64,000 bases of DNA from positions 15,996,001-16,060,000 of the forward strand of contig OX485806.1 in NCBI GenBank assembly GCA_950295325.1, written 5' to 3'. The notes under the pieces were generated by a model. It was not told the origin of the DNA. It ran no database searches and saw only the letters and a program-made list of their open reading frames with translations. The position numbers and the translations under genes were made by a program. Positions 21,883 to 50,729 of this stretch are shown here, piece by piece (the stretch's first letter is position 1; every line of letters begins with the position of its first letter). The stretch is from Polytrichum commune (taxonomy: Eukaryota; Streptophyta; Polytrichopsida; Polytrichales; Polytrichaceae).

Positions 21883-21989
21883 GCGTGGGCACTCTCAATG
21901 GGAGCGCGAGGGGAGCATTCCGCATGAGGGGCCGCGGCGCCTGGTGCTAACGGATTTGTTTCATCAGCCCACCACGCGCCTGCCCGTCA

Positions 21990-24578
21990 CTGCTGCCCGA
22001 GGCAAACATTTCTTTTGCGCCTGCGGGCCCGGCTGGGTATCCGTACGGAGACCGCCTTCTCTGACAGCAGACAGCCAATGGGAGGCTGCCCGAGGGAGTG
22101 CCCGCAAGATATTTTGAGCTGCCCACTTTGGTTTCAGGAGGTTCCTAGGCGCGAGGATATGAGGGTAGCCCTCTCCATTCTTCTTTTTCCGTGTCCACGC
22201 TCGAGTTTCTCACACCGTCACGGCCGATCAGCGCGTCGATTCCCCGTGCATCCGCGATTTGCACAGCGGCATCTTGTCCGGTATGTCCTGCTCTCTCTCC
22301 AGACCCCTCTCTCGCTTCATTCCGTCAGGAACCGCGTACCCTAGAGCTGTTGCGGCGGGAAAGGAAAGGAAGGAAGGAAGGGAAGCAGGGGTGGGAGGAA
22401 GGAGTGAATGAATCTGTGTTTGTGTTTGGATCTCTGCTCACTCTGTTGGAGTTCAAGTGTTCCGAGGTGCTCGTCGCCTGAATCTCTGCCGCAGGTCGAG
22501 AATCTGACATTTGATTCGCTCTACAGCCTCCTTATTATGGGAGTGATTATTCACCAGGGTTATTGTGTGGTTCGCGAGGATGTTAGTTATGGTTTCCTAG
22601 TTGTAACGGAGTCTTAGGCCTGTCTGTAACCTTGAATCAGAGTTCTGGTGCTTCCGTGGTTCCCAAGGATTGGTGCAGAGATGTGTAGCCCGTTGTACGC
22701 TGGTGTTTGCGGTGCCGTTTTAGGCATATGAACGAAAAGGGCGCATACGAGGGCATTTTCAGTTTGTGAAACTCTCGTCCTCTCATTGTTGGGCTCAGCT
22801 GGCCGCGATAGTGCAGCAGAGCGTCTTAGGGTGGCATTTGTGGCTGTATGTACAGACATGTACGGGAAGGTTATCTTCTTGGTGCGTATACTTCTTTGTG
22901 GGGCCCCTACCTATCTTTGGTTCGGTTCGAGAACGCATTTCACATAAGTGTTCCCGGTGCCGCAGATCATTGAGGATGATCATGTTAGAGAGATAGATAT
23001 CTGACAGAGCTATTTTACTCCAGACGCAAGGAGGATGGCTGTCTTCTGCCAGACTTCTGTGTCTCCCACAACTCAGAAAAGACTCCGAAAGCTGAACTTA
23101 CTTTAAAGTAAGTTCTGCAGTTGTTGATTGGCCCTGATGTTGACCATAGCATAGCATGCGCTGGTCTTAAAGACCTCAAGGAAAGATGTCGTGGAAGTAT
23201 GTTTTGTTTCGATGATTCGTTTGCATGTGCGTTTGGACGGGCAAATCTTATGTTCTGTTGCTGAAGGCCTTGTAAGGATCCGTAGGTTTTTGAGTATGGT
23301 CTGTAAAGGTGCTCTTATTGTTGTTAGAGGAAGCCGTTTAGGCCAAGGGCGGACTTGCAGTTTATGGTCTTCTTTATGCGGCTAGATTTGAAATATAAAG
23401 TAGCGTAACACGTTCATGAAGTCCCTGGTATATGGGTGTTCCTATTCTCCGGATATTTTCTGCACTGCGATGTGAGTGGAGTAACCGATGAGCGATTTCA
23501 GATGTTCTCAAGTATTACCCCATGAAACGCTTTCTGAACATACTGATATACTATTTTTCTCATTACTCGCCAACCGTCGCACATGGTGGCAGGCTTTGTT
23601 CACGCTGACCGTGCTTTCAGAGTGCCACCGTCGGCAGTGAAAAATTAAAATTATCCATTGTGGCTCATTGTAGTGTGTTATTTAACCCAATTCCATCACG
23701 GCTAGTAACTGGATCATAACGCTCTTATATCCTTTTTCGTGGCCGCCGGGCCGTCAAATATATTATTCATCCAGTCAGCCTTTGAGCAATCATGAAAATC
23801 TGTTGGTGGACTTAACATCCCATGTAGTTTTCATGTATTTATCTTCTAGAAGTCGTATGCACATTGTGCTCGCATGCTTTATAGGCCTTGGGTTGATGAT
23901 TCTATAAATCACTACTCTACATCTTAAAATAACGCAATAATTTTGATCATAACATCAGCTATGCCCTCTGACGAACAGAAGGAAGTACTTGGTTAGTGCT
24001 CCTGCTTTCCCTGGAGTTGACCGCTTTAGCTCTCAGGTTTGCGGAAATGGATGTTCTTAACTTTCGAACTTTCGAGGTTATGGTACATCGCAGGCATGGA
24101 TGTCCTCCACCAGCACGTCTAGGGTTTTTCTCAGTGCGTGTGATGCATCAGTTTCACAGTTTTGCTGGATCTGTTCTTTGGTGGCCAACCGGTCTCTTCA
24201 TATTGCACCCACTCGACCTGACAGTTGTGAGATTAGCTTCCGCTGCTTTCAGTTGATACTAACTTGATGTCTATGGATGTGTTGCAGGTCATTCCAGACC
24301 GCATCCTGTATATATATATGAGGCTGCTGTATATGAAGAGATTTTTTATTTACACCTACTTGCCAAAGCGTTACTGATCGACTTCAAAATATCTCTGGAA
24401 GAGTAACTTGAAGTGTACATATATCCTGCAGACAGTTTAGCTTTGAGAGGCTTTCAAAACGGAAGATCTTAACGGTCATTGTGGGGTGAGGAAGGGAGGC
24501 AAGCTGGATATTGCAAGAAATCTTAGTGGTGTCCAGCAGCTTGCTGGAGCTTGGGCTTCATTGGAAAGCCGAGCAGAC
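21990..24578 (+). other. 5' leader of gene A with a 2-kb leader intron
   Basis: A probable non-coding first exon ends at GGCATCTTGTCCG (22280) before GTATGTCC. The intron ends at GTGTTGCAG (24287), preceded by TACTAAC, a near-perfect branch point. Donor, acceptor and a CTAAC branch site are kept in arm B although the intron body is almost unalignable, which is what selection on splicing predicts. The second leader exon has an upstream ATG at about 24318 opening a 19-codon uORF. Just after the donor there is a GGAAGGAAGG-type purine tract. The transcription start is not identifiable. Confidence 0.6.
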
Positions 24579-25324
24579 ATGAATGAGAGGAGGCGGCCTC
24601 GGACAGGGTTCCGTGTGGAAGGGAGTGAGGAGGAAGTGATCTGTCCAAAGCCTCGGCGGCCGACCAATATAATATGTCCTGTGAACGAATTCATGAAACC
24701 TTCACGGAGGCGAAGGAGGTAGGTTGCAAAGTAGCAATGGCTTGTACTGTTTAATGTGGTAGGAAGTTGTGGTGGGGAGTGCATTGCTGTTCTCGTCCAG
24801 GTGTGCAGAAGTGCATAGTGAGGGTATTGTGAATTTTGTGGGGAGCAGGGAACTGATGCGTGCATGTTTTGTTGTTTGTGCAGCCAAAACACTGTCCGAC
24901 CTGAAGGGGAAGCTGGTTTTGAAATATTGGACATTTTTCTGAGCAAGGTAAGAAGAGTTCCAAGCCATGTGGTGTGTTTGCGATGGTTGAGAAGTTTGAT
25001 AAGCAAACGATATGGTGGTTGGGTGTATGGGGTTGTTGGTGAAGGTGTGGACTGATGGTGAAGGTGGCCTTGTTACAGGGCGGATACGGAGAAATATCAA
25101 ATTTTGGGTGTTCGCCCCCATACTTCTGTGGTTCTCCTCCGAACCGGTCAGGAAACCCGCTGATTCATGACGTGCAGTTTTTGCATCAGAGAGCACAGTC
25201 AGTGCTGTCACAGCAGATCGCATCATGCGGACCGTCTTCTTACGGAGCAAGCCCGGCGGTGAGGGTGGAAGGGTTTGCGTCGGCGGGGCCTGACTCTCGG
25301 TCTCAAGTATCTGCACTGGCATGA
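24579..25324 (+). CDS. Plant-specific unnamed protein, gene A (3 coding exons, 149 aa)
   Basis: Coding exons are 24579-24718, 24884-24947 and 25079-25324, with introns GTAGGT..TTTGTGCAG and GTAAGA..TTACAG keeping one frame. The ATG at 24579 is the first in that frame (upstream in-frame codons lack ATG). Conserved blocks are an N-terminal [11 protein letters not shown], then VICPKPRRP (about 20-28), [23 protein letters not shown] (about 57-70), [17 protein letters not shown] with HDVQF, and a C-terminal AVRVEGF ending ALA. From memory this block order fits a widespread land-plant family of short basic, proline-rich proteins without an assigned function (Arabidopsis relatives annotated only as hypothetical). 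No signal peptide or membrane segment is visible; the arginine run could act in nuclear targeting, which is inference. The exons are identical to gene B. The antisense frames of 206 and 176 codons over it are shadows. Confidence 0.85.
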
Positions 25325-26015
25325 CCCTGTGATATGATTTTCCGCACCTGATTGCGTGCGAGAGCTGTAGGTAGAAGAAGAGTGTGTAATTTGGAGGGTG
25401 GCGACGTCACCGTGATGGTGATAGTATTTTTGGTGATAATCTTTTGATATCTGGACAGTGTTTGGAGGAAATTTCAGAAGCAGGCAGTCGAGGTTGTGGG
25501 CGGGGGCTGTGAGAATGCCAGGAGGGAGGAACGCGATAGAGGAGGGGACAGGGATTTTTGAGAGGGTAGAGGTGTCCCGACAGCGCGACTCAAAGGGGGT
25601 TCATGCCAGCATTTCCAGCAGCAGAGGCGGCTGCGAGCTTGTGATCTATGTAAGAGTGTTTAAAATCTCCAACCTTGTACACATGGCGGAGCAGATTTAG
25701 AGAGAATGGTACCACAATGCGGCGGCAAGGCAATTAAGCGACAATGCGACACTACCATTACCTGGTGTTTGCATAGCCAAATCTTTGGGTTTTGCACTTG
25801 AGAGCAGTTGAGAGTTTTTTTTTTTTTTTTTTTTTCTTCTTTTCTTTTCATTTAGTTGTTCATTTTTCTTACGGCCTTTAGTTCTGTACAGATATGTGAC
25901 CCTGTAATCTTATTGTAATCTTCTCCAATTGAAGAACGTCCCATGTAATTTACTGGCGGCTCCGGGAGCCCCAGATTGTACCACAACATTTGTGCAAATA
26001 AAAGATTTTAGTATC
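25325..26015 (+). other. 3' UTR of gene A with polyadenylation signal
   Basis: After the TGA at 25322-25324 comes about 690 bp of non-coding sequence, a 22-base poly-T run at about 25814-25835, TGTAATCTTATTGTAATCTT as a far-upstream-type element, and AATAAAAG at about 25999. It is identical to the arm B counterpart except for the poly-T length. Confidence 0.6.
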
Positions 26016-26420
26016 TGGAGTTGTGTTGCAAGCAGGGAAACTGTTTCCCAGTGTGTGTGTAAAGTTAGCAGGCAAGTGTCGAAAGTTTGTGTGATGTGTG
26101 CAGGGGACATTTTAGTGTCTGGAGTTGTGTGGCAAGCAGAGAAACCGTTTTCCAGTGTGTAAAGTTAGCAGGCCAGTGTTGAAAGTTTGTGTGACGTGTG
26201 CACGGGATGTAATGGGCGGTGGTGTTGCACATGAGTGGTGTGTTTCCTGTGAAGTTGTGTCAGGGTGGGGTGTGATTTTCATCAATGCTGGGTTGGAGGT
26301 GTCCTTGCAAATCACGGGTTACTTGGCACGTTGAAAGGTTGTGGGAACAGCTTGCGGACTGACAAGAATTCCCCTTTGCTCGTGACATCCTCTGAGGAGC
26401 TCTGACATTCATGGAATTGG

Positions 26421-27382
26421 TTTTGTCATTGTGTCTGTCTGTTTAATTGTCGTCATTGATGGTCTATGTCGAACTTACAAAAGTTAAAAACTTGTTGGTA
26501 CCCGACATTGGTAGGGGACATACTTATTACTGGGGACAAATGGGCCAGAAATTGCTCTACTTATTTTGAGTCCTTATTTGCTCTCCGCTCTTACAATTTG
26601 GTGTATCATGGTGAGGTGAGGCTGCCAATTATAATGTGTTTGTTTTCATGAAGAATTTAGTGATATGAAGAGAAGCTGAAACAGATCCAAAGTCAGTATA
26701 GACATGGGTAGGATTTCTTTGGGGACTTGGGGCGCAACCTGACCCAATTGCCAGGGTTGGTGGGGAGAGCACCCATGGCCCAGCATTTGCATTTGCACCT
26801 GCCTTTGCATCAATCTCTCTAGTACAGTGAGCACTGTATTTATATATTTATTTATAAATGCTGATTTAAAAACCTTCATGAGGTCAAACTGAACCTAACA
26901 CATTAAAGTGAATTGAAATATAAAAACTTTAGGACAGAATCTCCAATGAAATGATTCAAAAAGCCAACGAAGCAATGTAGTTGGATGGGTTGGTGCCAAC
27001 TCTGTCAAATGCAATGAAATGTTGTCCCCAATACGTGAGTCACATCCTCGCTTTTGTGCTAACTTCAATTTCAAGGGGAAAGTTGCATACTGTTGTCAAT
27101 TGTAAATTTGGAATAAACAAGCTGAACACTTGGTTCGTGTGCCGAATGCATTCAAGCAACTACAGTAATCTCCCGTTTAAGTATGCACTTTGGACCGGAG
27201 CTGTTGGTGCGCACTTAGTTGGTAGTTGCGTACTTTATTGATATCGCTTTCCAGACCCTCTGATTTGATGAATCGCAATGGGAAACGGATGAAAGAAAGA
27301 AGTAGGAAAAAAGAAAAAAGAAAAAAGAAACGCCCGTATCTAAGTACTAGCATGAATGTGAGCCCGTTGGCCTGCGAAACGG
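26421..27382. other. Spacer right of arm A, no supported gene
   Basis: No repeat family from elsewhere in the window is recognisable. An (AAAAAAG)-like purine run lies at about 27295-27330. Frames of 60-86 codons have no family motifs. Confidence 0.45.
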
Positions 27383-28257: not shown

Positions 28258-29230
28258 GGGCGGCTTTATACACGGCATGGGGCTGGCCGGAGCACCGGCC
28301 CGATTAAGCCCTCAATCCGGCCCCACTTTATGAACTTTTTTGGGGCCTAACCTTGTCACTTGTAAAGTGGTGACGTGTTCTTGACAATAAAGTTTCATGA
28401 CACTTAATACTATGGGGGATGACATCTACAGGGTTGTGGTTAGCGAATCAAAATTGGGTCCCACTAGACTAAATTGGGGCCTTTGAATCTGTTTCAGCGT
28501 CAAAATGCTCCTATAAATTTATCTACCATGTTCACTGGATTGACCGATGGGTGTGGTTTAGAAGGCACACCATATTCTTGATTAACGGCTTAAATGTTTC
28601 ATTTTTGTCTTAAGTGCATAATTAGCACCTTACTTGTTGTGTTATTAGCCTAATGCTATCATATTTACACTAATTGTTATCTTATTAGACTAATCCATAG
28701 CCTAAGCTATACCATATGCTTGATTAAATGCTTAAATGTTTCATTTCTATCTTAAGTGTGTGATTAGCATCCCAATTGTTGTGTTTTTAGCCTAATTCTA
28801 TCATATTTGTGCTAATTATTGTGTTAGTGGACTAACCCATTGAATAATGCACGCCAATTTCTTGATTGACAATTTAAAATGTTTCATTTTTATCTTAAGT
28901 GTATGATTAGCGTCGTAATTGTTGTGTTATTATCCTATTGCTAACATACTTATACTAATTGTTGCCTTATTAGACCAACCCATAGCCTAAGCCATACCAT
29001 GTGCTTGATTAAATACTTCAATGTTTCATTTTTATCTTAAGTGTGTGATTAGCACCCTAATGGTTATATTATTAGCCTAATGCTATCATATTTTAGGTAA
29101 TTGATTCGTTATTAGACTAACCTATAGTCTAAGCCATACTACATGCTTGATTAAATGCTTGAATGTTTCACTTTTATCTTAAGTGTGTGATTAATGCCCT
29201 AATTGTTGCCTTATTAGTATAAAGTGGCCC
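28258..29230 (+). mobile_element. TWA-flanked TIR element (CTTTATAC ends) carrying a minisatellite
   Basis: The left end GGGCGGCTTTATAC and the right end GTATAAAGTGGCCC are inverted and flanked by TAA on both sides (28255-28257, 29231-29233). Two-thirds of its 973 bp is a tandem array. A related element with TTA duplications is at 30783-31313. PIF/Harbinger-like, non-autonomous. Confidence 0.85.
28556..29216 (+). repeat. 142-bp tandem array inside the 28258 element
   Basis: The motif TGTTTCATTT recurs at 28595, 28738, 28880, 29022 and 29164, a period of 142-143 bp over five units. Each unit has CTTGATTAAATGCTT, ATCTTAAGTGTGTGATTAGC and a TATTAGCCTAATGCTATCAT block. Confidence 0.92.
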
Positions 29231-38791: not shown

Positions 38792-39738
38792 TACCGTACG
38801 TTAAGGGCAGCTTCGACACATGTTAGCCGAATAATTAATTAAAGTTCAAAAAGTAGGTTGGGCACCTAAAAATAGTATATTCATACTTTTGGCAATTTTC
38901 TCTTTTAATTTTTTAAAATTCAGCCTAAATTCATTTTTAATTCTCTATTTATGCTTATATCTTGTACATCTCTCATGCATTGAATGACAAGTAAGATGTG
39001 AGTGAAGAGTTGAGAATGCTCTGTGCTTTATGCAAGTAGAGTGGAGTTGTGTTCAACAATGCATATGGGATATGTAAACTTTGAGGTGAAGCACCGAGTT
39101 AGACTTCATGTTTATAACACGCATAACTTTTGCATAGAGTCTTCAAATGACATGAAATTTCTTGGAGGTGAAAGATTACTTGATTTCTAAACTTTTCTTA
39201 GACCAACAAAATTCCAAAAAAGTTGATCTTCTATGCACAAATGACCTCCGAAAAACTGTTATGAACGCATTTTAATTTTTTGATCTTTACACGGCTGCAA
39301 TGTTTTGTCCATATGTTTTGCATAAAGACTTATTTTGACACAAAACTTGTTGGAGGTGGAAGAAGGATTGATTTCTCAACTTTTGTTAGTTGGACAAAAT
39401 TCTATAAAACTTCATCTTCTATGCTCAATTGGACTCCAAAAATTTGTGTACAACACATTTGAAAAGCCTCACCTAGAGTCTTGCTACTTCTTAACCCATA
39501 TTCTTTGTGGACTAATGTAAGTGAGCTTGATTACAAAAGGAGCACCTTCTCTCTTTCAAAATTCACATATGCTTCCACTGTAAGTAAAACTCTAGTGAGA
39601 AGTAAAAATTTCTTACTTTTCGGCAATTTTGAAAAATAATTAATTATATATTAGGCAAAAAATGCCAATAATTTTTCAAAATTTTCGGCATCTATTTTTA
39701 GAATTATTTTGTGCCGAACCTGCCCTTAACGTACGGTA
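38792..39738 (-). mobile_element. TACCGTACGTTAAGGGCAG element, short copy
   Basis: The left end TACCGTACGTTAAGGGCAGC, then TTCG, is inverted at the right end as CTGCCCTTAACGTACGGTA. It contains about two units of the 188-bp repeat that is expanded in the copy at 48260-50729. Both copies have TA just inside the outermost bases, so a TA duplication (Tc1/mariner-like) is possible but unproven. Confidence 0.8.
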
Positions 39739-39956
39739 TGTATGCTATTGTTTTACTTTTATAAACTTCTTGTATATAGGGGGATTTATTTCATAGTCAC
39801 CCATGCACATCATTCATGTTTCCAATGAAGAGTCCAACCCCTAGTAGTTCAAAACCTCTACCACCACTTGTCCATCATTCCCCTCCCACCCCCCCCCCCC
39901 CCCCAAACAACCTTTAGTAAAAATCTAACCAGTCTATCCTCATGAAAATACATGCA

Positions 39957-41283: not shown

Positions 41284-42866
41284 ATTTCCCACAAGGAGCA
41301 ACCCCTCCACTTTGATACGAATAGTATTGACCTTGTAGAGGTTCCTAGACCATAATGGATGAGAGTACGAAAGCAATGGCCATTACAATGCTTTTGGTCG
41401 AGTTTTGATAGAACACTTATGTCATGCTCTAGCTATGATAGAGCTTCACATGTTTCTCTAATACGGGTGGGGCTAGTGTAATTGATTATAACGTAGGTGA
41501 TCCCAACTTCCTTTGTAATTTTATATCCAACTTCTCCATAGATAGTAAACAAACCGACACAAACCATTGTCCTCTCTATTATAAAATATGTCAAAGTGTA
41601 GGGTCCCTGCTCCCAATTTGCTCTAGTCAATGTCATCTTCTCTATTCCAACCTTTTGAAGGTAATTCAGTATGTTTTCCATTCTTAAACATGCACTCACT
41701 TCCATACATGGCAAGATGTACACTTCATTAGAGGAACATGCCCCCCAAGATTGGCTACATTTGGTACTACGTGTGGATCAACCAATTTTCTCTTTAAAAA
41801 AAAGGGGGGAGGGGTGGGGGGCAAACAAAAAGGCAAGCCAGTCATCACATGGTTGCATGGGGAATGTCAAGAGGCTTGGAAAATTTATCATGTACAAACT
41901 CTATCATTACGAAAAGGGTGCCACACGATGATCAAATGTAAGAAACATTTTATTTGGAGCACAAACAAAAGGTGCTTCAAATACCTATTGTTATGTGGGA
42001 TTAGAAAAACCATAGCATACCAAGAAATGGGTCAGGTGTGTACCCTAAATCTGGAAGATGTTGTGTAACTAAATACTATCTAAAATCTCAACAATGAAAT
42101 GAATGTAGGAGTATTTTGTTGATATGCATCAACAACTCTAAATACAACAAAATGATGAAAGTGTACTTAATTGCACGGAGTTCATGTGCTATTGCAGAGG
42201 CATGCACCTTGTGAACATTGGTAGTAGTTGTTTTTGGTAAACATTAAGAATAACCTTAAACTGAATATACCATGATTTGAGGGTATGGTGTAGACAATGT
42301 GATTCATGTGAGCTTGTTTGATCATATGCAATGTCGTGGTGTTTATAAACACCAGGCATATACATGCAACATTTGATGAATACTGTCTCACCAAGTTTCA
42401 TTCCCTACTATTTGCAATGCATTCTTCGAAATCATTGATCCTGTTTGTTCTACTGGGATAGGGTTGCAAGAATGTTTGATTTTGGTGTTTCTTTAGGGTG
42501 GGATATGTTTGTTGCTTGCTTGAAATTCTCATAAGATTCAGAAACGTGCATGGGGATTAAGGTGGACGAATCTGATTGAAGGCTATTATGTCATTTATAT
42601 TTCTCTACGTATGTTAATTGTGCGGTTGTTGAATTCCAGTATGTCTGTTTTGATACAACCAAATAAATTTGTCAAACCGCCATTTACAGTTGGCCATTTT
42701 GGCACTTTGGAAGGGTGACTGCATCAGAAGCTCAGAGGATCTCGAACAAGTGCATCAAATTGAAGTTCCCGTTGTCCAGACCAATATAGACATATGGTTT
42801 TACATACTCAGGAAGCACCTAAGCTCACAACATAGAAGGGGCCCATGATGGAAAATGCAGACCCAT
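41284..42866. other. Spacer left of arm B, no supported gene
   Basis: Frames at 41433-42068 and 42182-42401 overlap on both strands without family motifs. A G-rich run (GGGGGGAGGGGTGGGGGG) lies at about 41804-41821. Confidence 0.45.
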
Positions 42867-43868
42867 TCCATAAATGTCAGAGCTCCTCAGGGAATGTCAC
42901 GAGCAAAGGGGAATTCTTGTCAGTCCGCAAGCTGTGTCAGTCCGCAAGCTGTTCCCACAACCTTTCAAAGTTCCAAGTAACCCGTGATTTGCAAGGACAC
43001 CTCCAACCCAGCATTGATGAAAATCACACCCCACCCTGACACAACTTCACAGGAAACACACCACTCATTTGCAACACCACCGCCCATTACATCCCGTAAA
43101 CACATCACACAAACTGTCAACACTTGCCTGCTACCTTTTCACACTGGAAAATAGTTTCCCTGCTTGCAACACAACTCCAGATACTAAAATCTTTTATTTG
43201 CACAAATGTTGTGGTACAATCTGGGGCTCCCGGAGCCGCCAGTAAATTACATGGGACGTTCTTCAATTGGAGAAGATTACAATAAGATTACAGGGTCACA
43301 TATCTGTACAGAACTAAAGGCCGTAAGAAAAATGAACAACTAAATGAAAAGAAAAGAAGAAAAAAAAAAAAAAAAAAACTCTCAACTGCTCTCAAGTGCA
43401 AAACCCAAAGATTTGGCTATGCAAACACCAGGTAATGGTAGTGTCGCATTGTCGCTTAATTGCCTTGCCGCCGCATTGTGGTACCATTCTCTCTAAATCT
43501 GCTCCGCCATGTGTACAAGGTTGGAGATTTTAAACACTCTTACATAGATCACAAGCTCGCAGCCGCCTCTGCTGCTGGAAATGCTGGCATGAACCCCCTT
43601 TGAGTCGCGCTGTCGGGACACCTCTACCCTCTCAAAAATCCCTGTCCCCTCCTCTATCGCGTTCCTCCCTCCTGGCATTCTCACAGCCCCCGCCCACAAC
43701 CTCGACTGCCTGCTTCTGAAATTTCCTCCAAACACTGTCCAGATATCAAAAGATTATCACCAAAAATACTATCACCATCACGGTGACGTCGCCACCCTCC
43801 AAATTACACACTCTTCTTCTACCTACAGCTCTCGCACGCAATCAGGTGCGGAAAATCATATCACAGGG

Positions 43869-44614
43869 TCATGCCAGTGCAGATACTTGAGACCGAGAGT
43901 CAGGCCCCGCCGACGCAAACCCTTCCACCCTCACCGCCGGGCTTGCTCCGTAAGAAGACGGTCCGCATGATGCGATCTGCTGTGACAGCACTGACTGTGC
44001 TCTCTGATGCAAAAACTGCACGTCATGAATCAGCGGGTTTCCTGACCGGTTCGGAGGAGAACCACAGAAGTATGGGGGCGAACACCCAAAATTTGATATT
44101 TCTCCGTATCCGCCCTGTAACAAGGCCACCTTCACCATCAGTCCACACCTTCACCAACAACCCCATACACCCAACCACCATATCGTTTGCTTATCAAACT
44201 TCTCAACCATCGCAAACACACCACATGGCTTGGAACTCTTCTTACCTTGCTCAGAAAAATGTCCAATATTTCAAAACCAGCTTCCCCTTCAGGTCGGACA
44301 GTGTTTTGGCTGCACAAACAACAAAACATGCACGCATCAGTTCCCTGCTCCCCACAAAATTCACAATACCCTCACTATGCACTTCTGCACACCTGGACGA
44401 GAACAGCAATGCACTCCCCACCACAACTTCCTACCACATTAAACAGTACAAGCCATTGCTACTTTGCAACCTACCTCCTTCGCCTCCGTGAAGGTTTCAT
44501 GAATTCGTTCACAGGACATATTATATTGGTCGGCCGCCGAGGCTTTGGACAGATCACTTCCTCCTCACTCCCTTCCACACGGAACCCTGTCCGAGGCCGC
44601 CTCCTCTCATTCAT
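43869..44614 (-). CDS. Plant-specific unnamed protein, gene B (3 coding exons, 149 aa)
   Basis: Coding exons on the minus strand are 44614-44475, 44309-44246 and 44114-43869, encoding the same 149-residue protein as gene A with no differences. Both introns keep GT/AG. The 3' UTR has a 19-base poly-A (plus-strand sense) where arm A has 22 and the same AATAAAAG signal at about 43195. The leader exon starts at about 44905 after GTGTTCCAG, and the first exon ends at about 46817 before GTATGTCC. The upstream ATG is kept but its uORF stops after 8 codons, against 19 in gene A. Promoter and leader divergence means that the two copies could be regulated differently although they make the same protein; that is inference. 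Confidence 0.85.
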
Positions 44615-47000
44615 GTCTGCTCGGCTTTCCAATGAAGCCCAAGCTCCAGCAAGCTGCTGGACACCACTAAGATTTCTTGCAATATCCAGCTTGCCTCCCT
44701 TCCTCACCCCACAATGACTGTTAAGATCTTCCGTTTTGAAAGCCTCTCAAAGCTGAATAACCTTCAAGATGTATGTACACTTCAAGTTGCTCTTCGGAAA
44801 GGACTCTGATGTCGACCAGCAACCACTTGGTAAGTAGGTACAAAAGAATTATCTCTTCATATACAGCAGCCTCATATATATACACAGGGTGCAGTCTGAA
44901 AAGACCTGGAACACATCCAAACACATCCGGTTAGCTTCCTCATAACAAGACGCATCATACTACACAAAGACACTACACTGAAAGAAGCAGAAGCTGATCC
45001 CAAAACTGTTCGTGCAAGTGGTTTCAATCTGAAACGAATGGTTAGCCACGACACAACAGATCCATCAGCAGGTCATGGAGAGCAGCGAAAACACATCACA
45101 TACATGCAATGAATACCGATGCATCATACTATTTGGGAAAACCCTAGTAATTCTGGCTGGAAAACAAGCACGCCTGCCATGTAACAAGACACCCGTGAAC
45201 TTCTAGAATCTCATTCCTATCAGAACTAGGAACAATTTCCTTTCTGTTACCGCAACGCCTGTTAACCATGAAAGCACAATGTGCAAGCAAATAAATCTGT
45301 GCTGACTAGATGGTCTTCGTCAAAATTCGTGATCGCGCAATTATTGTGTAAGAGTAAGCAGTGGCCTTCCGTATGTACGACATGCGAAGGACGGTCGATA
45401 CATTTTTAAGGTTCTGGGGCCATGTAGAAACTATACCCCAGTTACCTTTAATGGTCGACTGGGTTAACCTCATTTAAAAATTTTAACCACAATGGCAACT
45501 ACCCAACTATTGTGATGTAAAATACCATTGACGGCGGTGCTCAAGGTACGGCCAGTGTGAGCAAAAATCCTTCACGATAATAAACATGATCACGAGCAGG
45601 ATTTGGCGTTTCAACAGCACAAAATGTACATGAGCTGGCAAGTTATGATCCCTGCTAGGCAGAAGACTACGTGAGCAGAAATATCCTAACGTTGCTCAGC
45701 AGAGTATAGAAGTACGTAAAATAGAGATTTCATAATATCATACTTTGATTTCCTAGTGATTTCAAATGACTTCATATGCAGTAGACAAACGACCTACATC
45801 CGTCAACGAATCTACAGATCGAAGTGAGATCCTGGGCAACAAAAGATGGGATTTGGCCATCCATGCTCTCATACAACCAAAATGTCACAGCCAAATTCTG
45901 CGACCTCTTTTTTCCCATTTTTCTTTCAGACAGGGCATGCTACCGCCAAACCTCCTACCCACCACCAGGGAGACTAACTTTTGATATAAGGAGTAGATTT
46001 TATGCTCCTTTCGAGCAATCAAAGATGCTGACGGTTTGGCAGGACACAGCCATCTTCCTTGCGACTGGAGTAGATATCTCTGTCAGGTATCTGTCTCTCT
46101 ACCATGATCATCCTCAGTGATCTGCGGCACCGGGAACACTTATGTGAAATGCGTTCTCGAACCAACCCAAAGATAGGTAGGGCCCCCACAAAAGAAGTAT
46201 GTGCACCAAGAAGTATGTGCACCAACCTTCCCGTACGAGTCCTGTACATACAGCCGCAAATGCCACCCTAAGACGCTCTGCTGCACTATCACGGCCAGCT
46301 GAGCCCGATAATGTGAGGACGAGAGTTTCACAAACTGAAAATGCCCTCGTATGCGCCCTTTTCTTTCATATGCCTAAAACGGCACCGCAAACACCAGCGT
46401 ACAACGGGCTACACATCTCTGCACCAATCCTTGGGAACCACGGAAGCACCAGAACTCTGATTCAAGGTCACAGACAGGCCTACGACGACGTTACAACTAA
46501 GAAACCATAACTAACATCCTCGCGAACCACACAATAACCCTGATGAATGATCACTCCCATAATAAGGAGGCTGTAGAGCGAATCAAACGTCAGATTCTCA
46601 ACCTGCGGCAGAGATTCAGACGACGAGCACCTCGGAACACATGAACTCCAACAGAGTGAGCAGAGATCCAAACACAAACACAGATTTATTCACTCCTTCC
46701 TCCCACCCCTGCTTCCCTTCCTTCCTTCCTTTCCTTTCCCGCCGCAACAGCTCTAGGGTACGCGATTCCTGACGGAATGAAGCGAGAGAGGGGTCTGGAG
46801 AGAGAGCAGGACATACCGGACAAGATGCCGCTGTGCAAATCGCGGATGCACGGGGAACCGACGCGCTGATCGGCCGTGACGATGTGAGAAACTCGAGTGT
46901 GGACACGGAAAAAGAAGAATGGAGAGGGCTACCCTCATATCCTCGCGCCTAGGAACCTCCTGAACCAAAGTGGGCAGCCCAAAACATCTTGCGGGCACTC
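44615..47000 (-). other. 5' leader and leader intron of gene B
   Basis: The intron (about 46816-44906) keeps donor, acceptor and a GCTAAC branch-site candidate but shares only islands with gene A's, for example an ACTGGCCGTACCTTGAG-like block matching CTGACCGTGCTTTCAGAG in arm A. The first exon and the proximal intron, including the GGAAGGAAGG tract, are well conserved. Confidence 0.6.
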
Positions 47001-47215
47001 CCTCGGGCAGCCTCCCCATTGGCTGTCTGCTGTCAGGGTAAGCGGTCTCCGTACGGATGCCGAGCCGGGCCGGAGGCGCAGAAGCAAGTCCTGCCCGGGG
47101 CAGGCGTTCCGGGCAGGCGCGTGGTGGGCTGGTGAAAAAAATCCGTTAGGACCAGGCGCCGCGGCCCCTCATGTGGAATGCTCCCCTGGCGCGTTCCCAC
47201 GTTCCCTTTACTTGT

Positions 47216-48259
47216 GCCGCGTTCTCGTTCGTCATGACTTTCCCTTTTGTTAACAATAATATCCTCCTCTACCCTTCCATTTCCATAGCCATACCCTCGA
47301 CACAATTTGTATGGAACTTGCAACATGCACATGTTGAAGGTCCCTAGACTCTCATGTAACTTATTTACACATTCAACCGCACGTCAACCGTAAAAAAATG
47401 TTTGGAGGATTATTATAAGGTGTATACACACACTAAAAATCAATGATGTGGTATTGTAAGGTCTTTATTCAATATCTAATTTGGAGTTGACATTCAAAAA
47501 GGAGTTTGTGAAAGTTGAATTGAATATAGTTGGAATCATGAAAAACATATGACGTTTTTACATACAAATTTTGTCTTCCAAAATTGTATATAATGATATC
47601 ACATCTATGTTTGTTCAAAATTGCTTCAGAGTTCTCATGGTTTAAAGAATTGCACCATTCCTTCGATGTTGTGGAATGGAGCCATGGACCAATTTCAAGG
47701 TGTTGAAAGATGGTTTAATATTGTATATCACCCAACTCGGTCTCCTTGTCTCGTCTGTGGGCTTGTTGGAAGTAGAATTAGATTGTCATTTGCCCATTCC
47801 ATAGTACATGCAATAGTTTATTGGGTAATAGTTGGATCCTTTTCACATGTGCTACCTTCTTGTTCATCGTTTTTTCAACAATACGGAGCTTGGAATGTGC
47901 ATATGAAGGTAGTGGATACATTAATTGTGTAGTCAAATATGCACGTGATATTTTGTTTAGGTAAACACATTGCTTCTAAGCATAATGGGTTGCCCAACGA
48001 ACCAAGGGTGAAGTGTCCCTCATTCCTATCCAACCACTGGTCGGTGTCGTCTCTCTCAATGCCCAACGGATGGGAGATTGGGTGCATCCACTACCTTCAT
48101 CTTCATAATGACTTTACCTTTTTGTAGCATTGTCCTACCCTACGAGTTGCTTTGTACCATACATGAATTATGTATGGAAGTTGCAATATGAACGGTTTGA
48201 TGTATTAGACATCCACAAAAGTATACATTTTTTGTTAGATAGGTCAGCAAATGTGATCA
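47216..48259. other. Repeat-derived spacer left of the 48260 element
   Basis: TTTGTATGGAACTTGCAACA near 47308 recurs near 51458, and a GTTGGATNCCTT-like plus TGCTACCTTCTTCTTCATC block near 47840 recurs near 51510 and 51075. The 48260 element therefore lies within an older dispersed or tandem repeat. The 103-codon frame at 47621 has no family motif. Confidence 0.5.
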
Positions 48260-48480
48260 TACCGTACTTTAAGGGCAGCTTCGGCACAAAATAATTCTAA
48301 AAATAGACGCCGAAAATTTTGGAAAATTATTGGCATTTTTTGCCGAATATAAAATTAATTAATTTTCAAAATTGCCGAAAAGTAAGAAATTTTAACTTCT
48401 CACTAGAATTTTACTTACACTGGAAGCATATATGAATTCTGATGGAGAGAAGGTGCTCCTTTTGTAATCAAGCTCACTTA

Positions 48481-49598
48481 TGCCCCTTCCTCACCTGGCT
48501 CTAGCTAAGACCGGGTCTTAGCGCTAAGACCCGCCTTTAGTTCTACTAGGCTGCACTGTGAGGCCCGGTAAGCCCGGACAGTCCGGACCCTAATACCCGG
48601 ACCGGTCTTAGGGGTTGCTATTACCCTCCTTCTTCACCAGACGCTAAAAGTGAGCCCGTTAATCTGTGTTTTTTGTCGTCGCCTCCTGTAACGGCCATCC
48701 AACTGCCATTCACACGAACGGCAGTATCAACGCCAACGGGCGTCTCAATTGATGCTGCAGGAGGAGGTAAATGCTGAGCACAGAACCGAAATTGGGATCG
48801 CACAACAGGGTTTCGGCAGACTGTGTGTTTTCTGTTGCGTTCGTTGTAGGATCGTTGTCTACTCTGCACAGATCTCCGAAAACCGCTGCTTGCGGGAAGA
48901 GCTGCGAGGTTGTGAGCTCTGTTGAGTGCTTACGGTGATACACCGAACTCTGAACAAACACCGAACTTTGAATGATAGTCCGAACTCTGTAGATACTTGA
49001 ACTCCCACAATATCTCACTGCAGGCTCACCTGCTCTCCCCGCACAACACAAATCCTCTCAAATCCTCCTGCTGCCACAGAAGTTGTCACTGTTCCTCACC
49101 AATCCTTAGAGGTAGCCAGGTGAAGAGTGCCTGCCACTCTCTCCCCAGCGCAATCCGTAGAGGTAGCCAGGTTGCACTCTCTCCCCAGCGCACAAGGAAG
49201 GCACACTGCACCGTCACTCTCTGCAGCCGCGAGGTCAGATTCGGCGAGGTCAGATTCAGGTCCGTTGAAGGCCTCCGCGTAGTTCGGCGAAACGGCGCAG
49301 CTAACATATTCAAGTATTACCGGTACTCTTCAGTCTACAGGCAATATAGCTAAAACCATCCAGGGGCCAATCCGGAGGCGGGTCTGATAGACAAGAAGCT
49401 CCCTAAAATCCCTCCGCGGTGTTAGCTACAGTAGTCAGCCTCGGCAGTAGAAACACTGCAACGGCAGTAACAGTGGACACCGACCCTGTATGCCAGCTCG
49501 GTGTGGGCCCTAAGACCGGCGTAGGTGGAGAAGGAGGGTCTTAAATCCCCACTTTTACCCTAAAACTGCCCACACTAAAGCCAGGTGAGGAAGGGGTA
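48481..49598 (+). mobile_element. Nested 1.1-kb TIR element, CCCCTTCCTCACCTGGCT ends, TTA duplication
   Basis: The left end TGCCCCTTCCTCACCTGGCT and the right end AGCCAGGTGAGGAAGGGGTA are inverted with one mismatch. TTA flanks both sides (48478-48480, 49599-49601). The sister element at 38792-39738 has the uninterrupted site (near 39510-39525, reverse strand: CTCACTTACATTAGTCC). It is markedly more GC-rich than its host. The interior has two copies of a GTAGCCAGGT..CTCTCTCCCCAGCGCA block. The frames of 82-118 codons overlap on both strands and I recognise none. Confidence 0.88.
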
Positions 49599-49612
49599 TT
49601 ACACTAGTCCAC

Positions 49613-50370
49613 AAAGAATATGGGTTAAGAAGTAGCAAGACTCTAAGTGAGGCTTTTCAGATGTGTTGTACACAATTTTTTGGAGTCCAATTGAGCATAG
49701 AAGATGAAGTTTTATAGAATTTTGTCCAACTAACAAAAGTTGAGAAATCAAGTAATCTTCCACCCCCAACAAGTTTTGTGTCAAAATAAATCTTTATGCA
49801 AAAGATATGGACAAAACATTGCAGCTGTGTAAAGATCAAAAAATTAAAATGCGTTCATAACAGTTTTTCGGAGCTCATTTGTGCATAGAAGATCAACTTT
49901 TTTGGAATTTTGTTGCTCTATGAAAAGTTTAGAAATCAAGTAATCTTCCACCTCCAACAAGTTTTGTGTCAAAATAAGTCTTTATGCGAAAGATATGGAC
50001 AAAACATTGCAGCCGTGTAAAAATCAAAAAATTAAAATGCGTTCATAACAGTTTTTCGGAGCTCATTTGTGCATAGAAGATCAACTTTTTTGGAATTTTG
50101 TTGCTCTAAGAAAAGTTTAGAAATCAAGTAATCTTCCACCTCCAACAAGTTTTGTGTCAAAATAAGTCTTTATGCAAAAGATATGGACAAAACATTGCAG
50201 CCGTGTAAAGATCAAAAAATTAAAATGCGTTCATAACAGTTTTTCGGAGCTCATTTGTGCATAGAAGATCAACTTTTTTGGAATTTTGTTGCTCTAAGAA
50301 AAGTTTAGAAATCAAGTAATCTTTCACCTCCAACAAATTTTATGTCATTTGAAGACTCTATGCAAAAGTT
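49613..50370 (+). repeat. 188-bp tandem array, about four units
   Basis: AAAGATATGG-type landmarks fall at 49801, 49989, 50177 and (diverged) 50365, exactly 188 bp apart. The middle units are almost identical to each other, while the outer ones match the two diverged units of 38792-39738. Confidence 0.93.
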
Positions 50371-50729
50371 ATGCGTGTTATAAAAATGAAGTCTAACTAG
50401 GTGCTTCACCTCAAACTTTACATATCCCATATGCATTGTTGAACACAACTCCACTCTACTTGTATAAAGCACAGAGCATTCTCAACTCTTCACAAAACCG
50501 TGAAAGATTTATATCTTTTGTAAAACTCTTCACACAAATTGTGAAATCGTGAATAAACATCCTTGTTTACCGTTAGATAATAACTTCTTGGATGTATGCC
50601 GAAATTGCATTATTAAACTATTTAAAATGCCGAAATTTTTAGTAATTTTTTTTTGCCGCCGAACACTGTTTTTTTACTTTTAATAATTATTCGGCAAAAG
50701 AGCGCCAAAGCTGCCCTTAACGTACGGTA

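Follow-up and report, generated by a model that had tools for sequence, protein, structure and literature searches.

The window analysed here is a stretch of 64,000 nucleotides (C4:15996001–16060000) from C4, which is 59.1 Mb long, within a genome totalling 407.8 Mb in 64 contigs. Using self-BLAST and MAFFT, we identified two inverted copies of one gene, arranged tail-to-tail. Arm A occupies positions 21883–26421 of the forward strand and arm B positions 42861–47202 of the reverse strand. The arms are 4.3–4.5 kb long, contain a single gene each, and form a mosaic with 64–100% identity. A spacer of ~16.4 kb separates the two, and genes A and B converge upon it. The inverted pair itself was correctly recognised by the original prediction, made from the sequence alone, but the exact ends given then (21883–26420 and 42867–47215) do not agree with our alignment. 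Other repeats are present nearby. Arm B is flanked by a second inverted repeat (39002–39740 and 48258–50493) that is 93–94% identical and partly tandem, with ~188-bp spacing. Self-BLAST also detects local tandem repeats in the spacer (28562–29217), with ~142-bp spacing, that are 79–83% alike.

The predicted coding exons of gene A are at 24579–24718, 24884–24947, and 25079–25324 (overall span 24579–25324, forward strand). This splice model, drawn by eye, has GT-AG introns and an AATAAA motif at about position 25997. The predicted product is 149 amino acids long and the coding sequences of genes A and B are identical. Note that a 206-codon open frame (24702–25322, reverse strand) partly overlaps this model, covering in antisense the two small introns and the second and third coding exons; the same is found in arm B. 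The splice sites and poly(A) signal lead us to prefer the spliced sense model, and we take this to be the predicted gene. A Pfam scan of the 149-residue product returned no families at E values up to 5. Its GSPPxRxxNPLxxDxxF-like stretch may resemble small uncharacterised plant proteins. Searches of the whole genome, with either DNA or protein, found only two copies, with core matches starting 18.7 kb apart. The protein was not found elsewhere in the genome at E values up to 10. The eight other DNA matches are short (38–48 bases) and fall at a poly-T run.

Strata of identity along the two arms

To obtain a profile of identity, arm A was aligned with the reverse complement of arm B, using MAFFT, and the alignment was then segmented. 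Four strata with sharp borders resulted, and these are 94.2%, 64.0%, 99.94%, and 94.6% identical. The outer block of arm A (21883–23042) includes the upstream region, the leader exon, and the start of the leader intron. Here, 66 of 1146 sites differ (94.24% identity) from the outer block of arm B (47202–46046), which includes the leader exon and leader-intron start. Next is a diverged stretch (23043–24438) comprising the centre and end of the leader intron, and the first ~150 bp of exon 2, which are 5'UTR. The equivalent part of arm B (46045–44755), with its leader intron and the beginning of the exon 2 5'UTR, differs at 398 of 1104 sites (63.95% identity). The third stratum (24439–26042 in arm A, 43153–44754 in arm B) is a homogenised tract. 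In arm A, the tract contains the remainder of exon 2, both small introns, exons 3 and 4, and the 3'UTR; in arm B it contains gene B, with the same 149-residue product. Only one of 1602 aligned sites differs (99.94% identity). Finally, the 3' flank past the gene (26147–26421, matching 43152–42861 in arm B) differs at 15 of 275 sites (94.55% identity), and homology stops at its end. The step in identity anticipated by the original prediction is therefore present. Equally high identity across the leader intron, which would have spoken against a recent conversion, was not seen; the centre of the intron is ~64% identical, compared with 99.94% for the homogenised tract. The leader exons, described earlier as differing at many sites, do so less than was implied. 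For instance, positions 22150–22449 are 97–99% identical in the MAFFT alignment.

The longest substitution-free run covers 1,566 aligned sites (24475–26042 in arm A, 44718–43153 in arm B). When the 137 substitutions were placed at random over 3,082 aligned sites, no run of this length arose in 2000 placements. As predicted, this core of ~1.57 kb, including all coding exons, both small introns, and the 3'UTR, is identical (0 substitutions at 1,566 sites). There are no changes in the coding sequence (140, 64, and 246 sites), in the introns (165 and 131 sites, 296 in total), or in 820 UTR and 3' sites. The latter comprise 104 sites in the 5'UTR part of exon 2 and 716 sites after the stop codon, up to position 26042. 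Hence, more than 1,100 of the 1,566 sites are intron or UTR, and high identity extends to positions without coding constraint. The sole change in the core is the length of the poly-T run, which is 21 in one copy and 19 in the other, rather than 22 and 19 as first reported. By the rule of three, divergence of the core is less than about 0.2% (95% bound, 0 of 1,566 sites). This is some 30 times below the flanking blocks and more than 150 times below the leader-intron centre.

The borders of the identical region are sharp, as had been claimed, and its 3' end at 26042 is retained. The 5' border, placed previously at an A/G difference (position 24474), is better set at 24439. Note that the 35 bp preceding the A/G difference (24439–24473) are identical too, and divergence begins at position 24438. 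Position 24474 therefore lies inside the tract. Immediately upstream, 40 of 180 sites differ (24259–24438), and in the adjoining part of exon 2 (24289–24438) 35 of 150 sites have changed (77% identity). Hence, the tract from 24439 to 26042 contains one substitution, and the two-base difference in the poly-T run. It is a contiguous stretch of high identity, with sharp borders, set between homologous flanks of lower identity.

Private tandem duplications occur in both 3' flanks, in agreement with the original prediction. In arm A, a diverged duplication with a ~104-bp unit (26005–26212, forward strand) spans the 3' border of the tract; unit 1 starts at 26005 and unit 2 at 26109. Arm B has one such unit, and its own 17-bp tandem duplication at 42936–42952, within the 3' flank (42861–43152, reverse strand). 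Unit 1 of arm A agrees with arm B inside the core but unit 2 does not. This pattern fits conversion either way, and so gives no direction.

We turned our attention to the leader intron, most of which was said to be scarcely alignable. Indeed, the intron centre is hard to align. Identity from MAFFT was ~64% overall, and 39–64% per 100 columns in another run, compared with ~50%, or 37–60% per 100 columns, for unrelated flanks aligned by the same method; the figure of 64% is thus alignment-dependent. Local alignment was more informative. The leader-intron stretch gave a score of 64.0, compared with a maximum of 17.0 from 30 shuffles, and contained collinear blocks of 63–83% identity. In a second local alignment, the score was 54.5 and the maximum from 40 shuffles was 19.5. 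The strongest local signal sits at the 3' end of the intron. When parts were scored separately, using 100 shuffles, positions 23043–23600 scored 31.5 (shuffle maximum 16.0), positions 23600–24080 scored 23.5 (maximum 17.0), and positions 24080–24288 scored 47.5 (maximum 16.0). Hence, each part tested is shared homologous sequence, as expected if the arms are old. A genome-wide search with each diverged stretch found the other and, besides this, only one weak 28-base self-match. We also considered that a diverged stretch could have been swapped in from a third source; no third copy was found in the genome. Since the leader-intron centre is homologous, and no third copy was found, we conclude that the duplication is old and that the core was homogenised recently. 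The tract is thus bordered by genuinely homologous sequence of greater age.

Origin of the identical core

By far the best explanation, and one that we hold with considerable confidence, is an old inverted duplication partly homogenised by interlocus gene conversion. The strata, the substitution-free core, and the homologous but diverged intron all support a recent conversion tract between the inverted copies, as the original prediction proposed. Mechanistically, repair of a break in one copy would have been templated by its inverted sister, located either on the same chromosome or on the sister chromatid. Such repair would have copied ~1.6 kb (24439–26042) recently. The 94% identical blocks on both sides, in the outer leader region and 3' flank, may be the trace of an earlier round of conversion. 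The leader-intron centre would then be the part that escaped both rounds. Our data suggest that the arms record at least two ages of homogenisation, an older one represented by the 94% blocks and a younger one by the 100% core. While an earlier round is the simplest reading of the 94% blocks, these could partly reflect selection on promoter or leader sequences, or how old the duplication is. A likely consequence of conversion is that the two genes continue to encode one and the same protein, even as their leader introns diverge.

That last possibility, that the 94% blocks give the age of the duplication, can be taken further. A young duplication could have an unusually fast intron centre and no earlier conversion round, with the core still converted. 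Note that this overlaps with the explanation above, from which it differs only in the history before conversion of the core. The outer 5' block and 3' flank are 94.2% and 94.6% identical, as expected for one age, and homology stops abruptly at the ends of the arms; in the 1 and 2 kb on either side, we found no homology above that of shuffled sequences. Conversely, every part of the intron centre that was tested is homologous between the arms, and no further match to it was found in the genome. Divergence roughly six- to seven-fold higher, limited to 1.4 kb and with a sharp edge, would be required. Hence, we consider a young duplication unlikely.

Selection or an error of assembly might, in principle, generate an identical core without any conversion. 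Extreme purifying selection could act on the core since all coding exons of the model are within it, and parts of the UTR may be regulatory. However, no changes are found at 165 and 131 intron sites, or at 716 sites 3' of the coding sequence, while the adjoining 150 bp of the same exon have diverged by 23%. Furthermore, the 5' border falls within an exon, at no visible functional boundary. It is therefore extremely improbable that purifying selection accounts for the core. An artefact would arise if the core of one copy had been overwritten with that of the other during assembly or polishing. The identical core is only 1.6 kb long, a size that short-read polishing might conceivably confuse. 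Real differences normally survive polishing. In this instance, the poly-T runs differ in length (21 and 19), the A/G difference at position 24474 persists in the tract, and diverged sequence lies on both sides. Hence, an artefact is very unlikely. We return to gene conversion between the inverted copies as our preferred explanation.

Conversion of this kind is an established process. In the moss Physcomitrium (Physcomitrella) patens, nearly identical tandemly arrayed genes are reported (PMC3729371), and concerted evolution through gene conversion has been suggested as the cause of near identity in such arrays (PMC3045890). The A/B locus is similar in that neighbouring plant duplicates are near-identical, with identical coding sequences here. 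Unlike the P. patens arrays, there are just two copies here, inverted and 16.4 kb apart, and one tract is mapped to the base. Other parallels are palindromes of sex chromosomes. Arm-to-arm gene conversion is described for human Y palindrome P6 (PMC3723533), and for a willow W palindrome, where conversion was tested with a second species and identical stretches occur in older arms (PMC7023750). These systems also have inverted copies, on the same chromosome, kept alike by conversion. They differ from the A/B locus, where the arms are 4.3–4.5 kb long, contain one gene, and form a mosaic of 64–100% identity; moreover, C4 is not known to be a sex chromosome. Among the matches listed in a search of open-licence PMC papers (titles and the starts of abstracts), none concerned the A/B gene pair or conversion of inverted pairs across a moss genome. 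Thus, the process is already known and the A/B locus is a clean new case; a conversion tract resolved to the base, and strata of apparently different age, in a single gene pair. The locus also illustrates that dating such pairs by coding divergence would mislead, since the coding sequence looks newborn while the intron looks old.

Inverted and direct gene pairs elsewhere in the genome

The conversion signal at the A/B locus is one event. A similar pattern is found at an independent place on the same chromosome (C4:5550001–5570000, hereafter C4:5.55 Mb). This is a nested palindrome of three inverted gene-like pairs, located by means of matches to the chlorophyll a/b-binding family. Both the outer pair and the inner pair match Pfam, although stops interrupt the inner match. 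The middle pair has no Pfam match and was recognised by its 82–83% likeness to the inner pair. Substitution-free runs in the three pairs are 600, 1178, and 927 bp long, while the arms are otherwise 92.6, 86.3, and 70.1% identical. In the best local alignments, stretches between the pairs are 68.5 and 71.2% identical (scores of 94.5 and 143.5, against 21.5 and 17.5) and the outer flank is 72.8% identical. At the centre of the palindrome, the local score (19.0) was only slightly higher than that of shuffles (16.0).

We then compared 15 inverted and 15 direct pairs, in addition to arms A and B. Note that the selection was partly by hand. The chlorophyll-binding pairs were hand-picked and do not include all of the family; those in an array of 14 genes on C5, for example, are absent. 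Among chalcone synthase, peroxidase, and HSP20 genes, we used neighbours separated by no more than about 35 kb, with the exception of two direct peroxidase pairs within this distance in a palindrome on C2. The peroxidase list scored 150 of 191 candidates. Substitution-free runs of at least 500 bp, in diverged arms, were found in five of the 15 inverted pairs and none of the direct pairs (Fisher p = 0.042). Two wholly identical pairs, both peroxidases (inverted on C2, direct on C7), were scored as not diverged. Run lengths also differed by the Mann–Whitney test (p = 0.041, 14 pairs against 14, with the A/B pair and two fresh duplicates dropped). The inverted pairs with runs include those at C7:31.39 Mb (601 bp) and C1:40.9 Mb (67 kb apart, 639 bp). 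These two runs lie in long open frames and are therefore less informative about noncoding sequence. Moreover, the alignable part at C7:31.39 Mb is only 701 bp, with two substitutions (99.7% identity), and its run was not significant by permutation (129 of 2000). Discounting this pair leaves four of 15 against none of 15 (Fisher p = 0.0996). Similarly, with one value per cluster (12 against 9), the difference in run length was not significant (p = 0.155). Many other inverted pairs lacked the pattern, including peroxidase on C4 (74.6% identity), HSP20 at C1:12.2 Mb (82.8%), and chalcone synthase on C2 (98.4%, with changes unclustered). Note that permutation gave 0 of 2000 in eight of 16 inverted pairs, arms A and B included, and in seven of 15 direct pairs. 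Coding constraint clusters changes as well, and so permutation by itself is not a specific test. We conclude that an effect of inverted orientation on homogenisation is not established.

It is conceivable, though we regard it as doubtful, that in this genome, probably that of a moss, recurrent conversion confined to genes maintains the identity of inverted neighbouring genes as a class, and that the spacers and leader introns of the same palindromes decay. Such pairs would be an autosomal counterpart, in haploid plants, of sex-chromosome palindromes, with inverted orientation retained for repair from a local template. If homogenisation of inverted pairs does exceed that of direct pairs genome-wide, the use of inverted duplicates as local repair templates by haploid-dominant plants would become testable.

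Some further arrangements were apparent among the gene families surveyed. Four peroxidase genes at C2:23163375–23245798 are mirrored about position ~23204586 with identical spacing, which suggests a palindrome with arms of ~41 kb or more. Over the 4.9 kb compared, identity is 100%. This palindrome either formed very recently, has been homogenised throughout, or is an artefact of assembly. The direct peroxidase pair on C7 (30509710 and 30541903, 32,193 bp apart) is 100% identical over the 4.1 kb aligned. Finally, the fourteen chlorophyll a/b-binding genes at C5:1751760–1846160 occur in both orientations and have equal scores against the Pfam model.
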